Assembly (NCBI GenBank): GCA_013423385.1
Contig: BLZA01000021.1
Coordinates: 620,001 to 684,000 of the forward strand
Direction: 5' to 3'
Length of the DNA stretch: 64,000 nucleotides
Source: Naganishia liquefaciens
Lineage: Eukaryota > Basidiomycota > Tremellomycetes > Filobasidiales > Filobasidiaceae
Shown: positions 4,776-53,023 of the stretch, piece by piece
Layout of the letters: each line of letters begins with the position of its first letter
Position numbering within the stretch: position 1 is the first letter of the stretch
Notes under the pieces: generated by a model
Told to the model about the DNA's origin: nothing
The model's input: only the letters and a program-made list of their open reading frames with translations
Databases searched by the model: none
Translations under genes and position numbers: made by a program

Positions 4776-6845
4776 ATGGCGGACCAGCTCACCACCGACG
4801 CCGTGTCGACGATATTTCACGCCGAACCCCCAGTAGATGCGACAGTCTTGCAACCTACGCTACAGATCCTCAACATCAAGAAGATCCAGGCAGCTGCTAA
4901 TTCTATGGATCGCTACCGGTCCGTCCCCTGTTGTTATTCATGCCTTAACAGGAAGCCAGGCTGACAAACTGCTTCCTAGGTTGATCATGTCTGATGGAAA
5001 GCATTACCTGCAAGCGATGCTGGGTACACAGCTCAACAATCTCGTCGAGACGAATGCTTTGACCAAGAACGGGTTGATCACCTTGACCCAATACGCCACT
5101 AATGTCGTCCAGGGTAGAAGGTATGTCGTAACTGAACATCCGCCTCAAGACAATCTGACGATATCACGTTGATTGGCGTAGATTACTCATCGTTCTAGGT
5201 GCCACAGCTGCACCTGGTCCAGCTGACCGTATCGGACAGCCGACCAATGTTGATGACAGAACCGCGGAAAACACTGAAGCCAAAGCCAACCCCGTCGCCC
5301 AGCAGCAACAAGCGGCACCGCAAGCCGCGCCTCAGATCCAGTCTGCTAGAAAAGTTGCTGCCCCAGCAGCACGTGGAGCATCGAATGCCGCTCGTGGTGG
5401 TCGTGCGGGTGGTGCCCAGCCATCTGGGCCTCTTTATCCTATTGAAGGCTTGAGCCCCTATCAGAACAAGTGGACAATCAAGGCTCGAGTAGCCCACAAG
5501 TCCGACATCAAGCACTATTCAAACCAGCGAGGTGAAGGCAAACTATTCAATGTAACATTCATGGACGAAACGGGAGAGATTCGCGCAACGGGATTCAATG
5601 AGGCGGTCGACAACTTTTACGAAGTCCTGCAAGAGGGCAAAGTATACTTTATCTCCCGAGCCAGAGTTAATATTGCCAAAAAGCAATTCAGCAATGTCAA
5701 CAACGACTACGAGATCATGTTCGAGCAGCATACCGAGATCGAGCCGTGCGAAGACGAAAGCGTACCGCAGGTCAAGTACAACTTTGTTCCTATCGAAAAT
5801 TTGGCTTCTGTCGAAAAGGATCAGACCTGTGATGTTCTGGCTGTGGTGAAAGAAGTTGGCGAGCTCGGTCAGATCACAGCGAAGAACGGTCGACCTTTCT
5901 CCAAGCGAGACATCACCTTGGTGGATCAATCGCAATGGAGTGTTCGGCTGACTCTGTGGGGTAAGCAAGCGGAGGCGTTCAAGAGCGAAGGCTATCCTGT
6001 TATCGCTTTCAAGGGCGTCAAAGTCGGCGATTTCGGTGGACGTTCCCTATCGATGTTCAGCTCAAGTTCGATGACCTACAATCCCGACGTTGGAGAGGCC
6101 CATTCACTGCGAGGCTGGTTCGACGCGGAAGGCACGCGTGTCAGCTACAACACCTTCAACAGCGCAGGTATGCAAGGCGCCGCGGGTGCCAACAGCATTC
6201 GTCCAGACGAGATGAAGACGATCGGTCAAATCAAGGACGAGAACATTGGCATGTCGGACAAGCAAGAATATTTCAGCACCAAGGCAACTATCAGCTTTAT
6301 CAAGTCGGAATCTTTCAGCTATCCGGCTTGTCCCACATGCAACAAGAAAGTCGTGGAGGAGAATGACGGGTGGAGGTGCGAGAAATGTGATGCTGTCTAT
6401 CCCAAACCGCTGCATCGGTCAGTCAATGGAATCCGTTCGCTCAAGTTTGGTGGACTGATCGGCGTCTCTTGCCATAGATATATTCTCAACCTCAGCGTCA
6501 TGGATCACACTGGTCATGTTTGGATCACCGCGTTCAACGAAGCCGCTGAATCGCTCCTAGGCAAGACCGCAGACGAACTCGTAGAGATGAAAGAGGCGGA
6601 CGAAGGAGCATTCAATAACATTATCCACACTGCCACGGGAAAAACTTTCACTTTCTCGTGTTCCGCCAAACAGGACAGTTACAACGTGAGCCAGGTATCA
6701 AGCACGAACAGTGTCAGTGCTTACACCTAACATCCCCTCTCAGGATCAAATGCGAATACGTTACAGCGTGCGACGAGCGTCTCCTATCGATTACAAACTG
6801 GAAGCTCGCGCCCTCATCAAGCTCATTGACGAAATGCAGATCTAG
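4776..6845 (+). CDS. RFA1: replication protein A large subunit (RPA70/Rfa1)
   Basis: Largest subunit of the heterotrimeric ssDNA-binding RPA complex used in replication, repair and recombination. Exons 4776-4918, 4980-5120, 5182-6694 and 6744-6845 join to 632 residues, the usual size. Visible: N-terminal DBD-F OB fold, a Gln/Ala/Gly-rich linker (about 5260-5430), DBD-A starting with LSPYQNKWTIKARV, DBD-B (TCDVLAVVKEVGELG), and DBD-C with a zinc ribbon CPTCNKK...WRCEKC (about 6331-6390). The C-terminal RIRYSVRRASPIDYKLEA is highly characteristic of the family. The last intron (6695-6743) is required to reach it. The ATG gives MADQLTTDAVS, right for the fold. Confidence 0.96.
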
Positions 6846-17672: not shown

Positions 17673-18281
17673 GACGTTCGAGTGGTCATGGTGTGGCTGA
17701 CGTTACGACTGGACGCCGAGGTCTCACCCTGATGCAGCGGGAAGCGTTTCAGACATGTGATCGGCAATTCGGGCCCGGCCAGAGTGGTGTCGGATCAGCA
17801 AGCGAGCTTGAGCTTGATCGGGAACTGATCAAGGGCTTACCCCATGATTAGGTAATGGGCGGGAAGGTAATTTGAGCTTCGAATTAGGGGCGATCGATCT
17901 GGGTTGGAGAAGCACTTATGCGACAGCTACAGCGAATGTCGGCACCACGTTGAGTGCGTAGTACATCGATACTGGCGCCGGGACTGACGGATCTGCGTCA
18001 GACGACAGCCCATTATTCCTCTGCGTCTTCAAACCTCTACGAAATTCAATCAGGAATCAATCTACGATATCAAAGGGGACGGCCCGGCGATTGTGTGGAG
18101 ACGGCTTAAGGAGATCGGATGATCCTTTGCCGAGAGTCAACGTAGAACCATATCCGTCCTCAGGTGCGTCTCTTCCTATCCATACTATGAATGATTCTCA
18201 TATGCGGTAATATAGTCTAGCTTACAAAAGACGGAGCGACACCGGTCGTGCAAGAGATCGCCATTTCCGCTCCGTCTCGCC
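17673..18281. promoter_or_regulatory. divergent promoter region, class-IV enzyme / kinase
   Basis: No supported coding frame. A possible 5'UTR intron of the minus gene starts with GTGAGACC near 17730. No specific element is claimed. Confidence 0.4.
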
Positions 18282-21200
18282 ATGACGATCACCAGGATAG
18301 GCCCGACAAGTATTCCTTCTTCTGTTCGAGTACCAACGTCTGGATCGCAAGCTGGAAGCAAGCCCTCGTCACCGGCATTTGCATTCGGCAGGAATTCAGC
18401 AGCCAGAACGCCTCGGCGAGCGGTGTCATCGACCAACAAATATAGAATCAAATCTGACTCGGATGACACCGATACAGAGTCCTTGTCGTCCGCAGAAGGA
18501 AGTGGGCTAGATTTTGATGAAGAGAGCGCTGGGCAGGAAGGCGATGAGGGCTACTTCGCAAATAGGGCGAGAAAGAAAGTCAAGAGAGGGAGATTCAAGA
18601 AAGGAGATGGTTTACCGGCATCCCCACCGATTTCTGGGACGGATGGGGCGCTAGGGGCTGCCGACTTTCGCTCGTCATCGGTGCAATCTTCCACAAGTAA
18701 CAATCAGGAACGTAGACGGCCTCCAACTCCACCAATAGATTATCTGGCGATGGCTACAGCCGACAGACGACGTTCGTCTTTCGCTTCGAACAAGACGTCA
18801 GTCCCGGCTTCCGATTCGCTTTCATCAGCAAGAAAGGGTTCAGGCGCTCTTGCCAGCACGGGGAAAGTCGGCTACGTCGGTAAGGGCATCTCCGTTTCAG
18901 ATATCAAGAGCGTCATGCCATCCCTGGACGCCGAAACAGACAAATCCTTCGTTGTCTCAAATGATACTAAGGTCACACGGAGGTCGAGTTCGTCTGCATC
19001 TCGACCAACTCATGCTTTCGGAGTACACCCAGATCCAACAGACATCGGCACCCAGCTTGCCGTTGAAGCTGGAATCACTGCGCATAGTGACATGCTGGGA
19101 AGGGGCAAACAAGGATTCGCGGCCTATTCGCGCGGACATGCAAAGAGCCAGTCACTATCATCAAACCATAGTAATACGGATCGGCCGCCAATCCAGGCCG
19201 TGCCATCCAGTTACTTCTCGTCAATTCGTCAGCAACAGCAACCGGAAACACCCGTTCGGCAGGATCTGGACGCAACGCCCGTGGTGCGCACCGATCATTT
19301 GTCGTCGCCTTCCAGCATCATCGCGAGCGAGGGCGAAAGCATTACAGGAGAGACCTCCACCGTGACGAACTCGCCCGTTGCCAGCTTTTCCCATACTAGA
19401 ACGCCTGTCGCTATTCCTCCATTCGACCCTTCTATAGCGCGGGGTGAAGAACCAGGGATTCCGCCTCCATGCAGTCCTCGTAAACACCGCTCCACTATCC
19501 TGTTGTCGCGAGTGCGGGCACAGACTGGTGGCAATCCTCTTGCCGAGGTCTCGCCTGGGTGGTCCGGAAAGAACGACGAGGTTCAGAGAGAGTCCAAAAC
19601 TCTAGGACTGGATATTCAAGGCGATGCCGGTGAGCAGCCAGGAATAAGCCCTGACGACTGGCAGAAGGTCGATAGATCGACTGCTCTCGACAACGCGTGA
19701 GTCAGGCCTGATGACAATAGCAAGATCTTGCTCATTGACCTCTTGAATTCAAGTGCAAGGTATTATCACCGTCACCCGTACGCCAAATCCGCGTCGACTT
19801 CACCAGTCAAGCGTTTTGGTAGTCTGAATCTCCCGGCCGACCGCACCCGAGCGCAAATGCCGCTGCGGCGGAGTCCAAGTGGTCATCTCGGTGGTAGCGA
19901 GCGGGATGAAAACGAAACCTTGCCAGCTTCTGGTTTTGCAACCGTCGGGGGTCTCCTTGCAAAGAGAAACTTCACCTTGCCCTTCCCTACAGATAGGCAC
20001 GAGGCTGTTCGGGATGTATCAGGCGGACATGTCGCTTCGCAACCTGAAGGCTTTGGAGCGCCGCACCTGGTACCGGACATCAATGCAAACGGCCGCCTCG
20101 TGATTCTCACTCCCACAACTCAGGAATGGCGAGAGCTCGGACTGGACAGCCTGAAACATCTGGGCGGAGAGGGCGTCGGCAGTGAGAGTGATAGCGATCG
20201 GGGACAGCACTGGGACAGGAGAGACAGCGAAGCTTCTTCCGTAGGCTCCGTCAACCATACAAATGCCCTCGGGTCGGACGACAGGAGGGGTAGCCTAGGG
20301 AGCGATCATCACTCAGGCAGCCAGCCAAACAGCCGTCGCGCATCCATCATCTCGCCTCTGTTAACCGGCACGCTGAACCGCCGTCGACAAGAGTCGAACG
20401 AAAATGCGATGATCACATCTGCTGCCCGGCCTCGAATTCGCAGTGATACTGTGCATTCGGTCGACAATTTGGTGTCTGCAGATATGGGCGTGCAATTCTC
20501 CTCACTCCCGAAGCTTCCTCTCGCCTCGCAGGATCTGATGATTCAGATTCCATCACGGTCATCGGGAACGACCTCCTTCATGAACACGGACGGTTACGAA
20601 GACAGTCAGTCGAAAGGACGATCTTCGGACGACAGACTAGCTCTTCCCCTTCATTCTGCGCCGCCGCTGCTGGAGGAGACCGATGTCTTTGCCAAGCTAC
20701 TGTCTGAACAAATGGCTCAACAACACAAGCAATCACCAAGCTCATCAGCTGGTGGAGCAATCAGTCAATATGGCCCGTCCGAAGTAGCCAACGCCAGCAG
20801 TGACCATGTGCGTTCAAACGATCGCCATAACCACGACGGCGCCTCCACAGCCGAGATATCGATTCCTCGCGCCCCGAAAATATTCGAACCGGCATCCAGC
20901 TTGAGCAGAAGTCAGAGTATGCGCGAACCTCCGACTGCACCGCATCATATGACCAAACGTGAAAAGGAGAGAGAACGCCTTTTTCGAATGGTTGGTGAAG
21001 AGATTGAGCGTAGCGGATTCACCGAGGGTCAAGGCGGCGCCAGGGGAATCAAGCAGATCGGCAAAGGTTTGAGTCTTGGTCTAACCTCTTCTACGAACCC
21101 AGGGACGGCGAATCCCATCATCAGGACAGAATCCGGGCCCGCTACGTTTGGTCCAACTCAAAGTCCGAATCCTAAAGCGAATGTGATAGACTCTGAAAGC

Positions 21201-23241
21201 ACAAACAACGCAGCTGTACTATCGCCAACGCCACATCGACTGCAAGATGTTCTGACTTCGGGACACTCGCCGTTGATTTCTGAGACACCCATCGACACTG
21301 TCGCATCGCCATTAATTGAAGAACATAAGTCAGGCCTTCAATCGGGACTCGCGTCATCGAAACCTCGTTCAAGAGCACATTCTCGTGCTCCCTCGCTTGC
21401 GCAGCTGAGCTCAACTTCGGCCTCCCGATCTGAGAAATCCATTGGCGCAGAAGCCAACAGTAATGGCTCTACGCCCCTTCCACCTTTGACGTCTCGACGA
21501 CGGCAAAGTCAACGCTTGTCTCTGTTGGCCGGCAGGACACCATTGCCTCATCAATTCCCCGCTGTGCTCCCGCCTTCCGCTCCCACCGGCAACAATGGTC
21601 CACGCAAGCCCTCTGCGGGGCTATCCGCATTCTCAGCCTTTGCGACCATGACCCCATCCTCTCCGCCCGTGCGGCGACCTCCGCTTAACAGAGATGTCTC
21701 AAGTGTTGGAGTCGGATCACTTTCCGCTATTCCAGGGCATCTGAAACAAATCGGACGGTCTGATTCCACATTATCTCTGGCTCCGAGTACCGTGGCACCT
21801 AGTGAATGTGGCACGCCTGTAGGAGAAACAGCTGGTGGCCTTGGAGGGGGAGGAATCGACGACTATATCATTCAAAGCGAAGCTGGCAAGGGGGCTTATG
21901 GCCTTGTCAGGCGTGCTAAGCGTAAAGGTCCAGACGGCCAGCCCAGCGGGGTAAGTGTCTTTGAATGACGTTCGACCTCAAGCTGAAGTTTTGTTTAGGA
22001 CGAAGTGATTATCAAATACATTATCAAGTCTCGTATCTTGGCTGACTGTTGGAAGAAGTAGGTGCCTTCAGGAGGTGGTTTCGGGCGGGACTGACGATTT
22101 CCTTGTTCAGACACAAGGTTCTTGGGCCTATACCCATCGAGAGTGAGCAAAGCTGACCTGAATAACTCTAATGAGCCTAATAAGTCGTTCGTTACCAGTC
22201 CACGTAATGGAACAACTGCGCAACGTTGTCTATCGCAGACCGAAGGCACCGCACCCGTGGGATCCTTTGCGCGCGGGCCATTCCAACTACGAAGAGCAGG
22301 TCAGAGCCGATACGCCTCTTCAAACGGGCCAGAATACACCTACGGGTCATAGCGCATCCCGGGCTAGTGTCAAGAGCGTCGCGGGGCACGAGGACCCGCA
22401 AAAGGAGAACATAGCTCCCGGCAAACCGGACTCGCAGGATTTGAGTGCCTGGCAAGCGAAATTAACCAAGGACAATCTTCAGAACCGAGGCCACCCAAAT
22501 ATCGTCAAAATGCTGGATTTTTTTGAAGATCGCGAGTTTTATTATTGTAAGTAAATGTCGCATGAAGAAGAATTGTACTGACAGCGCATTGCAGTGGTGA
22601 TGGCTCGATTCGGTATCGGCTTGGATCTGTTCGACCGTATCGAAAGCGCGCCAGACGGTCTCGAGCCGTTCGATATCCGATCTCTGCTCGGTCAGCTTGC
22701 CGATGCTGTCGCATTTTTGCACACAAACGGCATCGTTCACCGAGATATCAAGGACGAGAACGTCATTTTGGACGGTCATGGCCACTGTCAATTGATCGAC
22801 TTTGGCTCCGCGGCACACTGGCGACCCGGCAGAAAGTGGGACACTTTCTCCGGCACGCTCGATTATGCCTCACCCGAGATTCTGCGCGGAGAGATGTACT
22901 CGGGCAAGGAACAAGACGTCTGGGCTCTCGGCGTGGTCGGTTTCGTCATGATATGCGGAGAGACACCGTTCTTGAGCGCGGAGGAGGCCGCGGTCGGGCT
23001 GTCGGAAGGCAGCAAGGCAAGAAACGACCTCTTGACGCGGTGTGGAGGTGACCGCGGGGAGGAGGGTGGTGAGACGGACGGAGGAGGTCGAATGGCGGAT
23101 GCCCTGGATTTTGTGGAGAGATGTCTCGAACTGCAGGTGGATCAGAGGCCACCTGCCGAGGCGTTGATGGAGCATCGCTTTGTGTTTGGGAAGGAAGGAT
23201 GGACTGGATTCCGGGGATGGCTGCACACGGACGCTGCGTGA
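18282..23241 (+). CDS. serine/threonine protein kinase, PAS-kinase (Psk1/2) type catalytic domain
   Basis: Protein kinase whose catalytic domain resembles PASK/yeast Psk1-Psk2, regulators of sugar storage and translation. Exons 18282-19696, 19760-21950, 21999-22057, 22111-22142, 22199-22546 and 22595-23241 give 1563 residues. About 1180 N-terminal residues are Ser/Pro/Arg-rich with no PAS domain that I can see. Kinase motifs: GKGAYGLVRRAKR, VIIKYIIKSR (ATP lysine), MARFGIGLDLFD, HRDIKDEN, LIDFGSAAHW, GTLDYASPEI, KEQDVWALGVVGF. A Pro/Asp-rich insert of about 90 residues (about 22240-22480) sits between the alphaC region and beta4. Residues look competent for catalysis. The absence of PAS is by eye only. 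Confidence 0.85.
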
Positions 23242-41232: not shown

Positions 41233-42820
41233 ACTTGCCCGTCCTGCGCCTCAAGCCGCGCCTCTTGACCTCGGCATCAGATCCATAGCCGCGCTCCACC
41301 GCCTCGTCCATCAACTCGTCCATCGCCGCGTCCGCCGCATCCACTAACCGCACGACATCGTCATCGTCACCCGGACTGGTGGTGGTACGACACGCCGCCC
41401 ACACGCGCTCGGCGATTCGTTCGCCCTTGACACCGCTCGCGCGCTTCGCACGGCTCCACATCCCGATCCGCGGGTCCGTGATGAATTGCCATGTCACGCG
41501 CGGCCAGGACGGGTGCGCCGGCAAGGGGGCGTAGAATTCGTGGGCGAGGGCGTGCAAAGCCGGAAGACGGGTCCACGGGATGGAGGGGAAGTCGTGGTGT
41601 TCGTTGTGATAGCCGACCTGAAGGAAGGGGGGGGGGGAAGGGGCAAGGGTTGTTCGGTTAAGCCCGCGCCGCGAGGCAGAAGGTGCCGTGGGGGGGGGGG
41701 GAGCTCACATTGTAGCACAGCGCGTTCAGCCATCCGTAGTAACTCGTCGTTTCCTGACTGAGCTCGCGAATGCCCTCGAGCCCGTCCTGGACATCGGCAT
41801 TACGTTGGGCGCCTTGAACGACGGCAACGTCCTTGTCGCCCGCCATCAGGTAATGCTCGGCGATGAAATGCCCGGCGCACGGGTGCAGGCTTCCGGCGAA
41901 AAAGGAGCTCATCAGGAGGTAGAAGAGCGAGTACCAGCCCCAGGCGTGGACGATGAGTGCGTCGGCGGCGAGGATGAGGACGAGGTTGAGGGCATGGTAC
42001 AGGGTCGGCCGTTGGGAGCGGATGAACCCGGGGCGGAGGGCGTAAAACAGGATTTGAAACGTGGCGAAAAAGGTCTTGCCGGCGACATTGTTGAGCACGA
42101 TCGCTTCCCATTTACTCGGCAAGTCGGTATCGATCCCGTCCTCGCCGAGAAACTTGTGGTGCTCAATGTGGTAGCCCTTGAACGCCATGGCGTACGGCAC
42201 GCCAATGGCCACGTTGGCGACCATGGCCAACACTTTATTGGGCAAGATGCGCTTGAACGCGAGATTGTGCGTAATCTCGTGAATGGCCAAGAAAATGTTT
42301 TGGTTGGCCGTCCCGCCGACGGCATAGCTCACGAGCAGGAATTTCCACGACAAGGGCCACGTCGTGCGCAGCGTGTACGCCGTGGCGAGCTGGATGGCCA
42401 AGACGAGCGCGACACAGGGCGCCGTCCAGCGCGTGTAGCCCATCAACTGACGTACCTCGGGATGCGCCTTGAGGATCGCTTTCCGGCGCGAACGGTGCGG
42501 CTCCTCGGTCAGCATCCAGAGGAAATCGTTGGGGTCTTGCGGCATGGCGGCGGCGGCGGTGCGCGGGGTGTCGATGTAGCTTGATCGGTCGGACATGGGA
42601 GCCGGGGTGTTGACGGCTGCGTCGTCCTCGGATTCGGCGCCGCTCGTGAGGGAAGGCGTGGCGGAGCCTGCGCGGGCGCCAGGGATGTGTGTCCTCACGG
42701 CGGCGGGAGGAAACGGCGTTTCTGCGCCGCCGAGGAGGGAGTAGTCTGGCGGGAGGGGGGGAGGGGTCAGCCGGGGGGCGGTGACGAGGGGGAAGAGGGA
42801 AGGGACAGACCTATGGACAT
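41231..42820 (-). CDS. sphingolipid Delta4-desaturase, DES1 type
   Basis: Membrane di-iron enzyme that desaturates dihydroceramide, an early step to glucosylceramide, in the ER. Exons 42811-42820 (10 coding nt), 41709-42745 and 41231-41617 give 477 residues. N-terminal DES lipid-domain signature FLWMLTEEPHRSRRKAIL; several membrane helices; His boxes HEITHN, HIEHH and, across the second intron, GYHNEHHDFPSIPW. LHPCAGHFIAEHY is also family-typical. The first about 65 residues are an extra Ser/Ala/Pro-rich stretch. The second intron (41618-41708) has long C runs near both ends on the coding strand. Confidence 0.93.
41618..41708 (-). other. desaturase intron with poly-C tracts at both ends
   Basis: On the plus strand, G runs occur near 41629-41638 and 41691-41701, directly beside acceptor and donor. 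The intron is needed to join CYN to VGYHNEHHD in frame. Confidence 0.8.
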
Positions 42821-43052
42821 GGTTTGTTGTGGGTTCGTGGTGGGGCCGACTCGGGTGGATGCCCTCGCCTGGATGACCAGGACTCGCTATAATCGTCCTC
42901 GTCCTCGTCGTCGCTCCACTCGTTTGACGCGCGCTCGATCAATTTGCATCCGCGCGCGCGCCGGCCGGAGTGGAATGAATCGCATCGGTGAATCGGTTGC
43001 ATCCATTCCACCCATCCTATACCATCCACAACTGCCACCTGTCCGCCCAGTC
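42821..43052. promoter_or_regulatory. divergent promoter, desaturase / low-complexity protein
   Basis: About 230 bp between opposite start codons. No specific motif. Confidence 0.4.
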
Positions 43053-44027
43053 ATGCTCCGCCCTCCACCACCCTCCTCACCGCTCACAACACCCGCCAAG
43101 CCCCCGCCCGGCACCGGCACCGGCCGCCACCAGGGCCCGTCCACCGCGTTTCCGCCCCCGCTCGGCTCGTCCTCGCCGCCCATCTCATCCCCGACATCCT
43201 ACCGCGACCACGCGTCATTCACCTCGGACCCGTCGTCGTCTCGGTCGTCGTCGTCCCGCGCGCACAGCTCGGCGGGACTGTTTGCCGCCCGGGCGAGAGC
43301 CACATGCACGGGCACGGGCACGGGCACGCCGTCCGGGTACGTCGTCGAGGGATCGCGATACGGCCCGCGGCCTAGTTTGCGCAAGGCGACGACCGGGTTC
43401 ATGACGGCCGCGGTGGATGAGCCTGCCGTCGCCGCCACGACCACGACCACGAGCACGGGGTACCTCCTGCACCGACCTTTAGCCGTCAGACATGCATCCG
43501 AGCGCACCATCCCGCGCTCGATCCCCAACGTTTCCTCTGCCGTGGCAACCACCACGACCCTGGGCGACTCCCTGCCCGGTACCATGTGGAAAGGGAAATT
43601 CCGGCAACGTGTGCTCGCGGTTTCGCAAAAGAGACGCGATGGCAGGGACCGGAAGCGGCGGCGGAATACGGCGGCGGCGGGCGAGGGTGGAGGTGAGAGG
43701 GACGGCGGCGGCGGCGGCGGCGGCGAGCGCGAGTTGCCGGATGCGAGCGGGGAGAGTGCGTCCGCGAGCGATGCCGAAGCCGAGGCAGAGCATGAAGAGG
43801 TACGACGAACGTTTGTCTTCCCCCCCTCCCCTCCCCCGCCCTTTGCCCTAACCCCCTTTCTGACCCGCCTCATTTCCTCCCGCTGCGCGCAGATCTTCCG
43901 CCGCATGATCCAAAAAGAACACCGCCAACGCACACACACCATGGCACGCTCCTACGACGTCCACGTCGGCGGCTCCGATCCAGCCGTATGGGAAGCCGAC
44001 GTCCGTGATGCCGAACGCGATGGCGCA

Positions 44028-44070
<43 letters not shown>

Positions 44071-44465
44071 TTGCAGATGACGACCACGGAACGCCCGAAC
44101 GACCATTATCATCATCGGCACCGCAGTGGCAGTACCGCAGCACGACGAAACCCTCCCGGGCCGACACCGGCGCGGAAGACGAGTCCCAGCGTGAGCTTGC
44201 GCAGCTGTTGCTCGAGCAAGAAGAGGAAGAGTACGCCCGGATCGAGGCGTACGCCTCGGAGGTGCTCATGGATCCGCCCCTGCCCCTGCCGCTGCCGCCG
44301 CCGCCGCCGCCGCCGCAGCAGCAGCAGCAGCAGCAAGAATCGGACGTAGAGTTCCCCGCGTCGATGGATACGCCTGGTGGGCTGCTCGGCGTCGAGATGG
44401 AAGGGTTCACGTGGGAGGATGCGCCGCTGAGTGATGAGGAAGGTGGGGATATCGAGATGACGTAG
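43053..44465 (+). CDS. low-complexity protein of unknown function
   Basis: I do not recognise the family. Exons 43053-43799 and 43893-44465 give 439 residues. The first 150 residues are Pro/Ser/Thr-rich. A more ordered basic segment MWKGKFRQRVLAVSQKRR is followed by an Ala/Glu stretch, then IFRRMIQKEHRQRTHTM, SDPAVWEADV, a 14-residue poly-Asp, the acidic helical LLLEQEEEEYARIEAYASE, poly-Pro/poly-Gln, and an acidic tail ending DIEMT. The dispersed W, basic and acidic-helix blocks look conserved-protein-like, so I think it is expressed. The intron is phase 0 and 93 nt without a stop, so retention would insert 31 residues. Confidence 0.6.
44028..44069 (+). repeat. (GAC)14 microsatellite in coding sequence
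   Basis: Encodes 14 consecutive Asp in the protein above. Copy number is likely polymorphic. Confidence 0.9.
44293..44335 (+). repeat. (CCG)n(CAG)n microsatellite in coding sequence
   Basis: CCG units switch directly to CAG units, giving poly-Pro followed by poly-Gln. Confidence 0.9.
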
Positions 44466-44781: not shown

Positions 44782-47700
44782 TTAGATATCATATGCCACC
44801 CGGCCACCCGTCCACGCATACGGATACTTGGCCTGGTAAAAGTTGCGCAGCGACTGGCGACTTGCCACTCGCGGAATGGTCGCAAACGATCCGCCCAGCT
44901 GAGCAGTCGAGCACAAGGTCAGCTTTGTAAGAGTGCAGCGAAAGAGGGGAAACGGCTTCAGCCACACTCACGACAACATGATGCAGTCCGTCGTAAAAGT
45001 CGGTGCTGTAGCCCGGGTACACCTCGGACTGTTCGAACCCGGGGTATCCCTCGAGCAGGGTCGACGTCCATTCCCATACTCCGCCATTGTGGCCGTACAG
45101 TGGTCGTCCACACGTATCCATCTTGGTGTTCGATGGGCTAGACAACAACGGTAAGCTTCGCGCCGCGGTAACATCCAGAACGCCTACTCACGGAATGGGA
45201 TGCCAATTGCGCAGGCCGACGTTCGCACTCAGGCTCGCCGGGCGCGGGCCCATGGGCGAATTCCAGAGCACGCGCATCTCCGCCTCGGTCGGCAAGCGGC
45301 CTCCCTTCCACTTGGCAAACGCGTCGATTTCTTCGTAGCTCGCCATCAGAGGCCAGTGCTGGGCAACCTCGAGCGGCACGGGTCCATATAGGGACTTTAC
45401 AGTAACGCGGCTCGTCTCTCGGTCAACGTTCCACGAACCGGGAACGCGTTGAATACCGTTTGTCTGCCAAAACTCGTGGTACTCGCCGTTTGTGATGGGC
45501 AACGACTGCACCTTGAACGGACGCACGGAAGCGGTCGTCGCGGGATTCTCATTGTCCCAGCCAAACTCGTGGCCCAGCCAAGAATCATCCGTGGCGAAAA
45601 GGCGGTCTTGTGACTCGCGATCGTCGTGGCCGAGCTTTACCGTCGACGCCGAGAATGCCAGTAGACGGTTCACGGGCGCAGATTCGTTCCATTGTCGCGC
45701 GAGATCACTCCAGTGGGGATGACTAAAGCCCGGTGGCGGCAGAGTCGCTGGCGATTGGAGGAGCATGTAGAGAAGAGTCTGCCAACGCGAATCAGTACGG
45801 CCATTGTAGCATCGCTGAATCCACTCACCTCGACGTGGAATGCCTCGTGCTCAAACGTCATCCAGAGAATTCTGCCGAACCGCCTGCTTAATATCCTCTT
45901 GCCCGTGTCAATGTCGTCATACAAGGCGAGCAACCTGGCGCGAACCCGATCTCGGAATGCCAAGATTTCCCGCAAAACGGGCCACTCGTCGTCTTTTTCG
46001 GGCACCGCCGAGTGATCGTGGATCTTGGTCGGATCATCCACGTGCGGGTCAATGCCGCGCTCGAAAATGTCCTTGAAGTGCTCCGGTTCGGTATGCTTGC
46101 CATCAGTGATTCGTGTCAAGTGAATGTCAAGGAACGTCGGGATATGGCCTAGATAGAATAGACACTTGTGGCGCAGATCTATCGGTTTCGAATGCAACAT
46201 GTGCTCTGGAATCATGTCGAGCGTGACGAGGTCCCAATACTTCCAGAGGGTTTCCCACTCTTGCCGGCTGGGTATGCTGGACCAAGAATCGGCGCCAGTC
46301 GCAGCAGAGGTTTTGGGTTCCGAGCCATTCACAGGCGACTCTGCCTGTTTAGCGACTTCCGGCAATAGAGGGAAATAAAAGGCAGGTTTTTCCAAAAGCC
46401 AGAGCCGATATTCGCTCTGAGGATCCTTCCAGTATTGGATGATGCGCAGACCCGATTTCTCGAACATTTCGAGCATTTCAGTGACAGAGTACTAAATGCG
46501 GCGGTCAGTCAACGTACGAAACGCGGGATCGTGTCGTCCTACCTTGCAACTCCACTCAACGTTGAGTAGTTCCCCTGCAGCCACATCGACCGTCTCTACG
46601 TGGCCTTCGTCATTCTGCCAAGAAACCGTCTGATCTTTCTTGCTTTCGTAATAAGCTTCATGTCGGCCTGGATTCGGAAAGTGAGTACGTGTCACCGAAC
46701 AGCGCACCAGACAAAGCTCACCGAGGCGGATATTGTATCTGCTCTTGTACTCCCATGCCCCAAGATCAATGCTACTGCGGTCACCCTCGGACACGGTACC
46801 GTTCTTGAGTTCCTGATTGACAACTTCGAGACCATGCATGATAAAGTCCCGCGTCTTGCCCCTGGGATCATCGTACGCGATCTCGACCTTTTTCTGGCCC
46901 TGGAAATAGTCTGGCGTTCCAGGCCGGGTGATATCGGTCACGCTGCCCATGGGAGTTCTCGATCCGCTCGCTTGAACCTGTTTGACAGCAGTAGGCCGGC
47001 CATCGAGACCAATGAGCAACGTATCCTGCGAGCCAGGTCGCAAGGGTAACGACGACAAGAATGGCGCGGTTTCCGACCGATCAAAGTTTCCGAGCGATGA
47101 CCCGAGAAAGAGGATGTGTCTCGGTCGCTCTTCATGGTCGGCTGAAGCGTTGCCCGTTGATGTGCCGTTGGAAGCCTTGATGTCTGGCTGGGTCGCAGAT
47201 TGGCCGTTCCTTGCCGGTCCCGTGCCGTCTTGTGGCGTAGACCCGTTCTCATCGTATCCGTTGCTGTCGTGCTTCAGTGCACCAAGCTCGGCCGCTTCTT
47301 GCCTAAACATGCGAATCCGTCCGAGGGCGTATTTCTTTAAAAGTCGTGTAAGCCAAACGTGCACACCGTCATCTTCGATCAGACTCACCAGGTAGTCAAA
47401 TTCGGCCGCCTCGACCTTGGCGCGCTCGTCCGGATTTGTGATCGTCTTGACCCGCCGGATCTGCTCTTCGGCCTGAATGATACCCCACAGAGCCCAAAAT
47501 GCGGAACTGGCTGGCGACCAGAGCCGGACCTCTTTTTCGAGCGCGTCGACGCGGCTCTGTTCAATCTTGTCCTCTGGGCTGATGCGCTCCTTGCCATCCC
47601 TCGAAGACATGTGTACGGAGAGATACGAACGGTAGAAGCGAGTACGCTCTTCGAGCGTAGGGTACGGCTGGTGATGCGAGAGCGAATGCGAGTGTGTCGG

Positions 47701-50113
47701 ATGGTGATAGTCTGCCTGCCATTCGTGAAAGTGATTGCCAATGTCAAAGCCTCGTGGATTAGGCGAAGCGTATTCAAAGTCAATCACAATCAGCCTTCGG
47801 TGCGGCGGCTCGGACGGCGGCAAAGGCTCATCGAGAAGCAACAGGTTCCCATACTGAGTGTCGTTGTGGGAAAAGACACAGCCGTGTCCGTGGTCCCGAT
47901 CCGGATTGGCGTCAACGTACGCGACATAGTCTCGGATTTCCTTCTCGAGCTCATCGAGCGGGCCAACCTCGCGCATCCATTCCGCAAGCTCGGGCACCTC
48001 GCTGATCTGTCGCTCGACATTGCGCGCATGACCAAGCCAGTCCTTGAGGCATTCCCAGACGGTGACCTTGCTCTGGGATCCCTCCTCGTACCCGAGTGCC
48101 TTCAAGTCGACGGAATGCAGCTCGCGCATGCGCTTGGCAATGTGCGAGCTCATGGTCGGATCTCGGAGTTCGCGCGCCGTCAGTGCGCGCGAAGGAAAGA
48201 ATTGCTCGATCCGGCCGTTGGCAAAGATGCCCTCGATGCGCGGGCCCAAGTCGTACCGCGTCGAGAGCGTATGCAAGATGCGCAATTCCTCATCACGCGC
48301 GATGAGCGTGCCCGTCGATGGCCCAAACACGCGAACGAGCAGCGTCGGCGGCGTTCGTTCACCGGGCAAGTGGGAGATCCCGCCCGTGATCTTGGGCGTC
48401 AGCATCGGGCTCATCGTCGGCTCCAAGGGCTGATTCGTCGGATTGTACGAGCAAAAGAAGACGGCGTTTGTCATGGCGCCCGAAATCTTCTGCAGGTGGA
48501 CATTGGTCGGCGTCAGGTGCGAGGACGACCAGAGCGGGATCCGTAGCTTGCGCAAGAGGGCCAAGATCTCGGCCTTGAAAGAATGCTGCCGCCACGCCGA
48601 CGCATCGATCGTGACGTCGGCTTCACGGATGCCCATCGCATTGACGGGCGCCGCATCGCTGTCCGTGAGACTAAGCTCGTCGATATCCACATCGCCGTCG
48701 AGTCGAAAGCTATTAAAGGATGACGTCGATGTCCGCCGTGCTGAGCGGGCCGAGGACGTCGTGCTGTAGAATCGCGCCGGCGATTTCGAGCGCGTGCGTT
48801 GCAAGGGCGTAGCGGGAGTCGAGGACGGAGCCGACACGGCCGGAGTAATGGGCGCCGGTGACTCGACGGCGCCGGAAGCCGTCACGTTGTTAAAGTAGTC
48901 GTTCGGTTGTGGTCGCGGTCTCGCGCCATCTCCCTCGTTTGCGCGCTCCATCATTTGCCTATCCCTCTCCAAGCCGTGAGCCTTGATATACGCTATCCCA
49001 CGATCGTAATCCCCCCACAGACCGCGCACGTCAATCTTGTTCCTAAAGGCGTCCTGATTCGCGTCTTGCAATTGCTTGAGCGTGCGTTCCAGTTCCGGCA
49101 GGGAGAGATCGAGCGCGTGGTAGGTGATGGGTGCCGCTGTGTGCTGGGAAGATGTCGTTGTTGTGGGCAGCGTCGATGCGAGCGAGTTGAGAAAGACCGA
49201 GGTCTTGCGGAGGGAACTAGATACGGCGTGTGCCGTCAAAGCGAAGCACAGACGGCGCATGACGGAAAGGAAGGCAAGACAATGCAAGAAGGTGATCGAG
49301 AGAGATTAGATATCGTTCCGCGGCCAAGAGGCCAGAGTCGGATCTCGCAGAGACGTACCCGGCACCCAACTCGACAATGTCCCAACCCTGCTCGACTTTG
49401 TGCCTGTCTTCTGCCGACAACTCGGCATGACCGCCGTCGTTCCCGGACTCGTCGCCGTCGTTGGACGCCTGTCCCCGCCCGCCGCTTTCCCCATTCACGC
49501 CATCATTCCACTTGCCGACTCGACCATCCCCCCACCGCTCATCCACCTTCTCCCCCTCCTTTCCCGCCTTTCCGTACCCGCCTTCCCTCGGCTCCCCACC
49601 CTCCTGATCCTGATGCTGATCCTGCCCTTCGGCATTGTCCCGCCTGCGGCCTCTGCACTCAACCGGCCGCGGGAACCCCATCGCACGTGCAATCTCGGCT
49701 CCATGATCCTTGAACAAGCCCAACTCGGCGCCAAAGAGGTAATACTCGGGCGCGTCCTCGGTAATGGCGTCGTAGAGTCTTAATCCCTTTTCGTCGTACA
49801 AGACCATCGTCGGGATGGATCGGCGGTACTGCCACGCATCGGGGGCCGCCGCCGCGGGGACAGAGGTCGCGTCCGCGTTCACGTCGCCCTCGGCTGCTGC
49901 TGCTGCTGTTACTGGCATGGCAGGGCTTCCACGAAGACCGTCAATGATACGCTGCTTGAGTGCGAATGCCGGCGTCGATTCGCCAGAGGAGGAGGACGAC
50001 GATGCGGGGGCATTCTGCGCAGACGTGGATGCATATGGGTCGTCGGGCAAGGGGACGATCGTTGGTGGTTTCGGCTGCGAGGCGTGTGCTGGTGTGGCGG
50101 TGTGCTGTGCCAT
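44782..50113 (-). CDS. EGT1: Egt1 ergothioneine synthase with a choline-kinase domain nested in its methyltransferase
   Basis: Egt1 trimethylates histidine to hercynine (EgtD part) and couples it to cysteine with oxygen (EgtB part). Exons 49359-50113, 46543-49216, 45829-46491, 45192-45778, 44972-45137 and 44782-44898 give 1653 residues, against about 850-900 usual. Order: EgtD N-half with MVLYDEKGLRLYDAITE and ELGAGSLRKTS (intron 1 falls inside ELGAG) to RGLWGDYDRG; about 600 residues with a full choline kinase; EgtD C-half from FLGSSLGNFD to YRLWLLEKP; DinB-like EgtB with HKCLFYLGH and FEHEAFHVE; FGE-sulfatase domain with GRLPTEAEMR and NGGVWEWTST, ending AYDI. The insert and both EgtD halves lie in one 2.7-kb exon with no stop. 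ATG 50113 (MAQHTATPA) was preferred over upstream in-frame ATGs. Confidence 0.88.
47295..48930 (-). other. choline/ethanolamine kinase domain inside EGT1
   Basis: Segment inserted between the EgtD motifs RGLWGDYDRG and FLGSSLGNFD. A Ser/Arg-rich linker (about 48540-48930) precedes the kinase: SGAMTNAVF (ATP loop), LLVRVFGPSTG, RDEELRILHTL, Brenner motif HNDTQYGN (about residues 702-709 of the full protein) and choline-kinase motif IDFEYASPNPRGFDIGNHF (about 730-748). The catalytic Asp residues of both motifs are present. It ends in helices rich in acidic residues, then a Gly/Asn/Ser linker returns to EgtD. All intron-like breaks would have to be invented to remove it. Confidence 0.88.
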
Positions 50114-50412
50114 GATGACCCGTTTGCTGTCTGAGAGGGTTTCAATTGCAGCAGCGACGAGCCCATGTATCTCTCCCTCCCTGCCTGGCATCTGTCGCTC
50201 GCTCGGATCTACCGGATCGCCGCCGGAAGGGGACACGATTGCATCCGCGCACACCCCTCCCGCGCCGGCGTGGGATGACGCGTAAGGACTCTCTCCCGAG
50301 CGGACATGCCCGTCCCACATCCCGCTTGCCACCCCTTCACTGATGCCATACACTATGGGGGCCCTCCCTGCGCTACGTATATACACACATCCCTAGGCTG
50401 CGCCACGTTACA
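50114..50412. promoter_or_regulatory. EGT1 upstream region
   Basis: The reading frame stays open upstream of the chosen ATG with further in-frame ATGs, so the start could be earlier. Otherwise nothing is visible. Confidence 0.4.
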
Positions 50413-52526
50413 CTAGAACCCCCGGATGCCCAGCACTTTGCGCACGTCGCTCGTGAACCGCAAGCTGTCCAGCACCGGCAGCGCATCAAGCAATGCCTCG
50501 TCGTTGGGATCCGATGTCCAGCCTTCGATCGGCAGGGCGTTGGCTGGAAGGGTCCGGTGGGGGGAGGGGGCAGGCAATGAGCAAGCAACCGGGGACGCTT
50601 TCTTCCCTGCGACTTGCCCTTGTTCCAGTTATAGCTGACGGGTGAATTATCCATAAAGCAGACCCGGCTGAGGTCTTGTTCTACCAACGACAGGTCCTTG
50701 GTATACGATCCGTTGGGCTGAAGCGCGCAGGACTGGGTGGGCAGGGAGGGGAGGAGGGGGGGGGAGCAGATATCAGCCGAGACTCGCTCGTCATGGCGAT
50801 TCCGCCGGGAGACTCACCTCTCGATATAGTTTCTTGGCAAAGTATCCACGACCGCCGTCGAGCCAATCAATCACGGGATCGGCATACTCTTGCATGCTGG
50901 CTGTAAAGATCACGAGGGTATACCACGAAGATACCTAGACAGGCAAACATGAGCATCCCGTCCGGATCCCTCCCTCCGTCACATCGGACTCACCTTTTTC
51001 AGAAAATGATCCACGTAGGGCCGCTTGTAGACATGATAAAGCGTGCTCCGTCCGCCCAGCACCACCTCGACCACGTGTCCCTCCCCCCTCGCGCCCCCGC
51101 CGCCCCGCTGATGCTTCCCGCCGGAAAACAAGCCGGACAACGAGATCCCCATGATTCCGCTGCCGCTGCCCATGCCCGAAGATTGCAGCGACAGCGGACG
51201 CGACGTCGAGTGAATCAGCGTTTCGTCCAGGTCGAGAATGAGCGTTTTCGGGCGATGAAATGGGGTCGTCGAGAGCGCGCGCGGAATCGCGGTGATGCTG
51301 AGCGACGGTTGATGTTGTGTGGCATGCTGGTGGGCGGCGGCGGCGGCGGCGGCGGCGGAGCGCGAAGTGGGATGGTTGCGTCGCTTCGAGATCGTCGGCG
51401 CCGAGAGGGGCACCGAGAGTGGCGCGGGCAAGAGTTTCGTGTTGCGTGGCAGCGGCGGCGAGACCCCATCCGCAGGGGGCTGTCTTCGCGTTTCGATGAG
51501 AATATTATTGTTCGTGCTGGCGGATGCATGGGTGGATTGAATCGTCGGCAAGAGCGTTGGCAGCGTGTGGCGTGGTGGAGTCGTAGAATTCGTCAAGATG
51601 GATGACATCGATGCGGGATGATCCGTGGCGGACGACGCCCGCGCGGACTCTGCAGGATCCACCGTCTTCTTGCCGAGCTGAAAGGAGACGAGCTGAGGCG
51701 ACGTCCGCCGTGTAGACGACGACGACGACGACGACGCCCTGTCTGGCCCCGCCACGGCTGCTCCATTGCTCGAAAGCATCTCCGCCTCGGCCGCTTGGCG
51801 GAGCAACTCCCCGGGATCATCTGGCGCACGCGTCACGGGATCCACCCATGATCCGTCCACTTGCCCGTCCGAGCGCCTCTCATCCCGTCTCCTGCTCCGC
51901 GGCGTCTTGTCCTCGGTCTCGGTCTCACTCGCTGACGAAGCCGACACCTCGTCTTCCCGCCTCTTGCCCTCGAGTCGACCATCATGCTTGACGGCCAACC
52001 TGTCATTCCTCGCATTCGACCAATCCTCCTCGTCCGGTCCGAAGATCGCCGTCCACAGGTCCGACCAGAGCCCCAGCACGCCCACAAAGCCCGCAGTCAT
52101 CCACCCTTCTTCGGCATTCGGATTTCTGTTCCGCAGCGGGCCGCGTCGTCCTTGGCCGAGTGGCCGCTTGCGTCTTCGTCGGCGCGGATCAGGCCCAGAA
52201 CTATCGAGCGGCGCCGTAGAAGTGCTCGAACTTGCCGTGTCCGTCGCATGCGCACCAGGATACCCCGTCGGACGTCTCGTAGGCCGAGCGCGCACAGGCA
52301 GGCTCTTCCCGGGTTCTTGACCGGGAGGAAGAACCGGCTCTGTGCTCGCCAGCACGGAATCTGGAACGATGATCTGGCTGCGCCGACGTGACGACGGAGA
52401 GCCTGAATTGGATGCGGCGGGACCCGGGGCAGGGGGTTTCCAGCGTGAGGACGTCGTCCGTGGATTGCCCGCGCTGCTGTTCCATCGGTCGAGCAAGTAC
52501 CGGTCGAGCGTGGAGAGCGAGTTCAT
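50413..52526 (-). CDS. NEM1: Nem1-type HAD phosphatase (FCP1-like)
   Basis: Catalytic subunit of the Nem1-Spo7 phosphatase, which activates lipin/Pah1 at the nuclear envelope/ER. Exons 50994-52526, 50818-50934, 50618-50732 and 50413-50543 give 631 residues. A long Ser/Arg-rich N-half contains a hydrophobic stretch ([19 protein letters not shown], about 52030-52090) that could anchor it. The catalytic DLDETLIHS starts the FCP1/Nif domain; [48 protein letters not shown], and the C-terminal RKVLGIRGF follow. A Gly-rich loop sits between DLDETLIHS and YKRPYVD. The last intron has a GC donor. Confidence 0.9.
50544..50617 (-). other. GC-AG intron in NEM1
   Basis: Donor AAGG|GCAAGT, acceptor CCTTCCAG. 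It joins SYNWNK to [12 protein letters not shown], the family motif, and no GT donor gives this frame. Confidence 0.85.
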
Positions 52527-53023
52527 GGCCGCGTCCTCGCGATGTGCGCGCGGTGTGGGTGCGATGCCAATACCAATACTCTCCCGTAGCTACGCTTGTA
52601 TGCGGGACCGTGGCCGGGCATGGGCAGTGATTCTTTATGGGGAGCCCCTGCGGCCGGCAACATGTCACTCACGCAAGCACGCTCGACTCGTGGGGATGAC
52701 AAAGTAAACAATCCCATTCCCCGCCGGCCGGGACCAGGCGCGGGTCTCCCCGTCGCGCGATGGCTGCTCTCGATAATATATACGCCAAGGGTCTGCTATC
52801 GCCGGTACCAGCTACGTATCCACGCCCACAATCCGGACCCACGGGCCGGCCCCTGCGCTCCATCGTCAGCCTCAGTGGCGGACGCATCGTCTCCGATGCG
52901 GTACCGCTTTTTATATTCCCCCGGTGATTCAAAATTATCAACGCCCCAGATCCCTCGCTTGGCGAATCTAGTGTCGTCGCATCAGTGGGAAAAAAGATTA
53001 TACAAACGAGTATGAACCAAAAC
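52527..53023. promoter_or_regulatory. NEM1 upstream region
   Basis: Between NEM1 start and LCL3 stop, both minus strand. No gene seen. Confidence 0.4.

Follow-up and report, generated by a model that had tools for sequence, protein, structure and literature searches.

Results

The window analysed here comprises 64,000 nucleotides of Naganishia liquefaciens (assembly GCA_013423385.1, contig BLZA01000021.1, positions 620,001 to 684,000 of the forward strand), and all coordinates refer to this window. On its minus strand lies an EGT1 gene in which a complete choline kinase splits the EgtD domain and EgtB follows. The features of this gene are:

44782..50113, minus strand: EGT1 with a choline kinase inside the EgtD domain; 1617 residues encoded by 8 exons with 7 introns; assumed start codon
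49359..50113, minus strand: exon 1, encoding the beginning of EgtD with IPTMVLYDEKGLRLYD and the first part of ELGAG (PF10017 positions 12-60)
49217..49358, minus strand: intron 1, 142 bases (spliced alignment)
48967..49216, minus strand: second part of the EgtD N-half, from SLRKTS to RGLWGDYDRGIAYIKAHGLE at residue 335 (PF10017 positions 70-134)
48610..48966, minus strand: linker 1, residues 336-454, mostly predicted to be disordered; apparent N-terminal tail of the kinase with RRTS
47275..48609, minus strand: choline kinase domain, residues 455-881, with HNDTQYGN, IDFEYA and FDIGNHFHEW (PF01633, E 3e-65; best structure match 6whp)
47335..47388, minus strand: 54-base in-frame intron in the kinase C-lobe, between FDYL and KYAL (spliced alignment)
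47131..47274, minus strand: linker 2, residues 882-929, predicted to be disordered; its length varies among species
46384..47130, minus strand: EgtD C-half, from RHILFLGSSLGNF to about residue 1143, including NVEWSCK (PF10017); outer limit approximate
46721-46668 and 46542-46492, minus strand: introns inside the EgtD C-half (spliced alignment)
44785..46383, minus strand: EgtB, with DinB_2 carrying HEAFHVE (HX3HXE) and the FGE-sulfatase domain (PF12867, PF03781); inner limit approximate
45828-45779, 45191-45138 and 44971-44899, minus strand: introns inside the EgtB part (spliced alignment)

The gene structure was obtained by spliced alignment of the window DNA to the N. cerealis database protein QFC19_007768 (P0001), which yielded eight exons on the minus strand (50113-49359, 49216-47389, 47334-46722, 46667-46543, 46491-45829, 45778-45192, 45137-44972 and 44898-44782). 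The conceptual protein of 1617 residues contains no internal stop, and the gene ends with a TAA at 44784-44782. The ATG at 50113 is an assumed start: the frame stays open upstream and holds two earlier ATGs, and the N. vaughanmartiniae protein P0121 begins at roughly the same place. An earlier note on this DNA, made from the letters alone, had read 46543-49216 as one uninterrupted exon of a protein of about 1650 residues. Instead, this region holds two introns of 54 bases, 47388-47335 and 46721-46668, which are invisible as frame breaks because both are in frame and stop-free. The residues that they would encode are absent from the N. cerealis protein, and in two further relatives (P0002 and P0003) different residues stand directly after FDYL/FNYL at the site of the first of these introns, after which the frame ends. 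Since intron 47388-47335 lies within the kinase, the inserted kinase is not intronless here. An additional 54-base intron proposed by the spliced alignment at 49882-49829 was rejected as an alignment gap; DAWQYRRSIPT aligns without it.

According to Pfam, the open reading frame 49305-46492 (minus strand) leads from EgtD through a whole choline kinase (PF01633) back into EgtD (PF10017), and the adjoining frames hold the N-terminal part of EgtD as well as DinB_2 and FGE-sulfatase, which together make up EgtB. PF10017, PF12867 and PF03781 follow one another in the order of fungal Egt1, with the PF10017 profile interrupted by the kinase at about position 134 of 304. In the unspliced frame, the PF01633 match reaches 220.9 bits against a Pfam cut-off of 29 and covers profile positions 2-288 of 300. 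This confirms the succession of EgtD N-half, complete kinase, EgtD C-half and EgtB that the earlier note had described, with SLRKTS, RGLWGDYDRG, HNDTQYGN, FDIGNHF and FLGSSLGNFD all present. The HND and IDFE motifs of the kinase are in place, and the iron-binding HX3HXE motif of the EgtB part is found as HEAFHVE at residues 1322-1328.

Both parts retain the positions that are conserved in their free counterparts. For the kinase, 25 free fungal choline kinases share 55 invariant columns, of which 53 are kept in the window protein, in P0001 and in P0121, and 51 in the more distant relative P0005; the two altered columns of the window protein are changes of Y to F and of T to I. The Egt1 part was compared at 175 columns whose conservation is at least 98% in 111 canonical Egt1 proteins, chosen from 116 rows after P0127, P0135, P0150, P0165 and P0192 had been dropped for length or as presumed partial. 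The window protein keeps 172 of these columns, P0001 173, P0121 163 and P0005 159; in each of the latter two, eight of the losses are gaps due to a last exon that is absent from the model. The window protein is 82% identical to P0001 in the kinase and equally 82% in the C-half of EgtD plus EgtB. The kinase has the choline kinase fold, its closest solved structure among the structure matches being 6whp, the choline kinase of Cryptococcus neoformans. P0001 and P0005 score below the cut-offs of both NCBIfam models TIGR03438 (egtD) and TIGR03440 (egtB), yet so do all three canonical fungal Egt1 controls, so that these scores are no argument against a fungal Egt1. Judged by the conserved positions retained, both enzymes look functional.

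The same insert was sought in related Egt1 proteins and was found. EgtD, kinase, EgtD and EgtB stand in one chain in P0001 (N. cerealis), P0121 (N. vaughanmartiniae) and P0005, the last of which is 48% identical to the central frame of the window and 51% to the whole N. cerealis protein. P0001 and P0121 are publicly deposited as hypothetical proteins. Linker 1 is crossed without a break in all seven relatives (window excluded), whose identity to the window in this linker, domain edges included, amounts to 30-89%. At linker 2, three of the seven cross into the EgtD C-half (54-59% identity, domain edges included), three end ahead of it and the N. onofrii model P0004 ends inside it. P0004 carries only about a dozen EgtD residues ahead of linker 1 (RGISYIKDHGLE) and has no PF10017 match. 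P0005 (1509 residues) reads without interruption across six of the seven intron sites and, by eye, apparently reads into the last intron, which suggests one long open frame or an origin from a transcript. It has to be considered that the arrangement is a chimera produced by the assembly, as the earlier note had envisaged. No points in favour of this were found, and the same junctions recur in the separately deposited proteins of N. cerealis, N. vaughanmartiniae and further relatives, which makes an assembly error exceedingly improbable.

Outside this group, the two enzymes are encountered apart among the matches listed. A search with the whole N. cerealis protein matched 353 proteins, and among the best 120 of these, three carry both PF10017 and PF01633, P0004 has the kinase but lacks PF10017, and the reverse holds for the remaining 116, including proteins of Cryptococcus, Kwoniella, Tremella, Vanrija, Cutaneotrichosporon and Phaffia. 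The central frame of the window matched 200 proteins; four of the best 120 carry both PF10017 and PF01633. The Tremellomycete rows P0006-P0022 of this set are kinases of 506-556 residues without PF10017, and no free-standing kinase named Naganishia occurs among the best 120 of 200. The nearest named relatives of the window protein in the searches are Naganishia species, which belong to the order Filobasidiales.

In the N. liquefaciens assembly (19.4 Mb in 28 contigs), PF01633 matches only this locus at E up to 0.001, so that no second, free-standing choline kinase was found, and PF10017 likewise matches only this locus at the same threshold. A Cryptococcus choline kinase used as query also led only to this locus, with only the best candidates scored in such searches. 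One further PF01633 match, visible at E up to 10 (C3:558507-558593, L007), adjoins HRDIKPQNLL and was read as a protein kinase. Elsewhere in the genome, a member of the CTP-transferase family (L008) was read by eye as choline-phosphate cytidylyltransferase, the enzyme that follows in the choline route and that thus seems to be present, and there are matches to the PEMT family, which methylates phosphatidylethanolamine with S-adenosylmethionine (SAM), and to the CDP-alcohol phosphotransferase family. Phosphocholine therefore has an onward route.

In a tree of the eight fused kinases, 11 of the 17 free Tremellomycete kinases (P0006-P0022) and six kinases of other chosen fungi, all fused kinases form one clade (95/94) that is sister to the 11 free Tremellomycete kinases. 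The Egt1 tree comprised four fused proteins, ten from Tremellales/Trichosporonales and ten others that were chosen; here, the four fused Egt1 form one clade (100/99), sister to the ten from Tremellales/Trichosporonales. The examined members of these orders keep kinase and Egt1 apart. The simplest reading of the two sequence trees would be a single insertion of a native kinase gene into a native EGT1 followed by vertical descent. Horizontal transfer was considered and is supported by neither tree.

The insert occupies a loop of EgtD. From GDY/GTY to FLGSSLGNF, this loop counts 610 residues in the window protein and 552-590 in P0001, P0121 and P0005, compared to 34-190 residues in canonical Egt1 (78 of the 116 rows, where the pattern was measurable). 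The loop appears to be a recurrent site of insertion. The insert starts with a serine-rich tail that resembles the kinase's own N-terminus and, as free kinases do, ends just past MFRQEAAELG. All eight fused rows have RR[TA]S, and 15 of 17 free kinases have a basic [RK][RK]xS. Among the 78 canonical loops measured, the eight longest belong to Kwoniella and Cryptococcus rows.

A structure model was computed for the residues encoded by 49215-46543, with exon 1 absent and two introns retained. It has a mean predicted local distance difference test score (pLDDT) of 70.2 and a predicted template modelling score (pTM) of 0.58; the kinase is modelled confidently and the EgtD parts with middling confidence. 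Disordered linkers appear at model residues 97-175 and 655-695, and further weak stretches at 609-626, 737-774 and 827-852. The insert follows the helix after GDY and precedes the FLGSS strand, a position that, by analogy with EgtD structures, would lie away from the substrate site and leave the active site free. When the model was compared with solved structures, no EgtD chain was among the rows listed, because the kinase fills the list.

A different reading of the locus would be that a large EGT1 intron harbours the choline kinase as a gene of its own, or that the kinase is released by alternative splicing or polyadenylation, so that mature Egt1 lacks the kinase. Among the matches listed, the sister orders as a rule have a separate kinase and a canonical Egt1, the N. 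onofrii model lets a gene end with the kinase, and the fusion is read from DNA and database proteins. Against a nested gene, the earlier note had argued that both linkers stay open in the same frame. The linkers are indeed open, but of sequences simulated with the same neighbour-base make-up, 9% (linker 1) and 54% (linker 2) were free of stops, so that open linkers alone are weak evidence and the argument is weaker than claimed. It is the same continuous layout in other species that lifts the observation above chance. A nested gene is also disfavoured by the window DNA, which is stop-free from the kinase to the EgtD C-half, by P0001, P0121 and P0005, each of which continues from the kinase into EgtD, and by the 30-89% identity of linker 1, edges included, to the seven relatives. 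The in-frame codon scores of linker 1 exceed those of the other five frames and favour the coding frame; the scores of linker 2 are uninformative. No convincing splice donor or acceptor that would remove the kinase was found around the insert. Three of the four candidate donors between RGLWGDY and the kinase match 2/4 of the consensus and would delete conserved EgtD residues, and the fourth, at 48835 in linker 1, matches 1/4. The continuity of P0005 at six of seven intron sites also speaks against nesting, and we consider a nested gene very unlikely.

Some points weigh against a fusion nevertheless. The layout is read here from DNA and database proteins, and P0001 and P0121 are presumably automatic gene models. 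P0004, the N. onofrii model, terminates within linker 2 (ELGALKDDPKAL) and includes the adjacent phosphatase, so there may be a real break or a separate kinase transcript at this linker in that species, and no N. onofrii protein with the EgtD C-half and EgtB was among the best 120 of 1132 matches. One real intron of the gene has a donor scoring only 2/4, and a completeness figure was not given for the assembly. In the structure model, exon 1 is missing, two introns are kept and EgtD reaches only middling confidence. Overall, the fusion is very probably real. The natural domain-in-domain fusion proposed in the earlier note is supported by the same layout in three further proteins and in the partial ones over the extent that these cover, by one clade in each tree, by the lack of a convincing donor and by the search of the genome, in which no second choline kinase was found.

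On the minus strand upstream of the gene, 50373-52589 encodes an NLI-interacting-factor-like phosphatase (PF03031) that was read as Nem1-like. It is a phosphatase of this kind that the N. onofrii model joins to the kinase. In P0121, residues of about 1525-1927, past EgtB, match the beta-eliminating lyase family PF01212 and probably stem from a merged neighbouring gene. Other features of the window are:

41661-42938, minus strand: sphingolipid delta-4 desaturase (PF08557 and PF00487)
42585-44465, plus strand: open frame of 626 residues with Asp, Pro and Gln runs, without a Pfam match at E up to 0.001
5159-6727, plus strand: frame carrying domains of replication factor A / replication protein A (PF08646 and PF16900)
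18216-21965, plus strand: two adjoining open frames of 494 and 755 residues; no Pfam match at E up to 0.001

Discussion

The explanation that best accounts for these findings jointly, and that we regard as likely, is an Egt1 of one chain that carries an inserted native kinase, with independent activities, a single origin and the loss of the free CKI1 gene. The host would be an ordinary fungal Egt1, composed of the histidine methyltransferase EgtD and the sulfoxide synthase EgtB, within a single protein of 1617 residues. A whole native choline kinase, its N-terminal tail included, would sit in a surface loop of EgtD. We infer that the gene is translated as one chain and that the two EgtD halves pack into one fold, from which two disordered linkers lead to the kinase as an external domain that folds by itself. 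EgtD and EgtB would then produce hercynylcysteine sulfoxide, and the kinase would form phosphocholine, possibly also phosphoethanolamine, for the cytidine diphosphate choline (CDP-choline) route and serve as the choline kinase of the cell. Both activities are expected to be retained and are probably independent of each other, yet they would be co-expressed and co-localised. The insertion may have happened once, at or before the split of Naganishia from the lineage of P0005, and the free CKI1 would have gone from this genome.

A fusion gene would also be compatible with a chain that is cut in the disordered linkers to release a free kinase and leave a nicked, still assembled EgtD. Both linkers are predicted to be disordered and are variable, as would suit a cleavage site, but nothing in the sequence calls for cutting, and we judge this to be quite unlikely.

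As an addition to the fusion, the two enzymes could be coupled: choline, adenosine triphosphate (ATP) or phosphorylation of the kinase tail might alter histidine methylation, or the reverse, or the kinase might act on hercynine. Such coupling would fit the age of the fusion, given that P0005 is only 48-51% identical, and the fact that both routes touch SAM, with PEMT-family matches present in the genome. On the other hand, the kinase positions are those of ordinary choline kinases, the long linkers with their predicted disorder favour independence, and the loop between the helix after GDY and the FLGSS strand is taken to lie away from the substrate site. Hercynine is an unlikely substrate, since it offers no hydroxyl acceptor such as choline kinase uses. 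The functional coupling and the new substrate that the earlier note had suggested thus find no support in a kinase that keeps 53 of 55 positions and can be modelled onto the C. neoformans choline kinase structure, and coupling in any of these forms appears unlikely. We likewise see only a small chance of a regulatory fusion, in which the sole choline kinase would report choline, ATP or its phosphorylation state to the host methyltransferase, or the reverse, and phospholipid and ergothioneine synthesis, both tied to SAM, would be balanced in one molecule. Two independent enzymes on one chain are most likely.

The gene appears to be a natural case of a complete enzyme inserted into the catalytic domain of an enzyme from an unrelated pathway, with a kinase of membrane-lipid synthesis inside the synthase of the antioxidant ergothioneine. 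The fusion seems to have persisted while relatives drifted to about 50% identity, and no other choline kinase was found in the genome. It makes testable in what way a loop of about 600 residues is accommodated by a methyltransferase, and whether the tie to an enzyme of lipid synthesis prevents the loss of the ergothioneine synthase. In addition, such a fusion would mislead annotation and those searches for choline kinase or Egt1 that go by size or by a single domain. No description of an Egt1-choline kinase fusion was found in a literature search that covered the titles and abstract openings of the papers listed, with subscription journals mostly outside it, and the main text of the N. friedmannii genome paper (PMC12204325) contains neither 'choline' nor 'ergothioneine'.

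Fungal Egt1 is described in PMC4020840, which also defines the HX3HXE motif, as an EgtD-EgtB fusion in S. pombe (egt1/mug158) and N. crassa (Egt-1). The window protein shares with it the order of EgtD, DinB_2 (HX3HXE) and FGE-sulfatase and 172 of 175 conserved columns. In contrast, fungal Egt1 lacks the 427-residue kinase and the two linkers, and its loop of 34-190 residues (78 of 116 rows) compares with 610 residues here. Choline kinase is the subject of PMC10970773. Unlike Cki1 of Cryptococcus neoformans (6whp), the kinase of the window lacks a stop codon of its own and lies within another enzyme. Bacterial EgtD (PDB 4pim, 4uy5-4uy7) and EgtB (4x8b, 8vih) are homologous to the respective domains of the window protein but are separate proteins, whereas the window protein is fused. 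In conclusion, the gene represents a new domain architecture of known enzymes.

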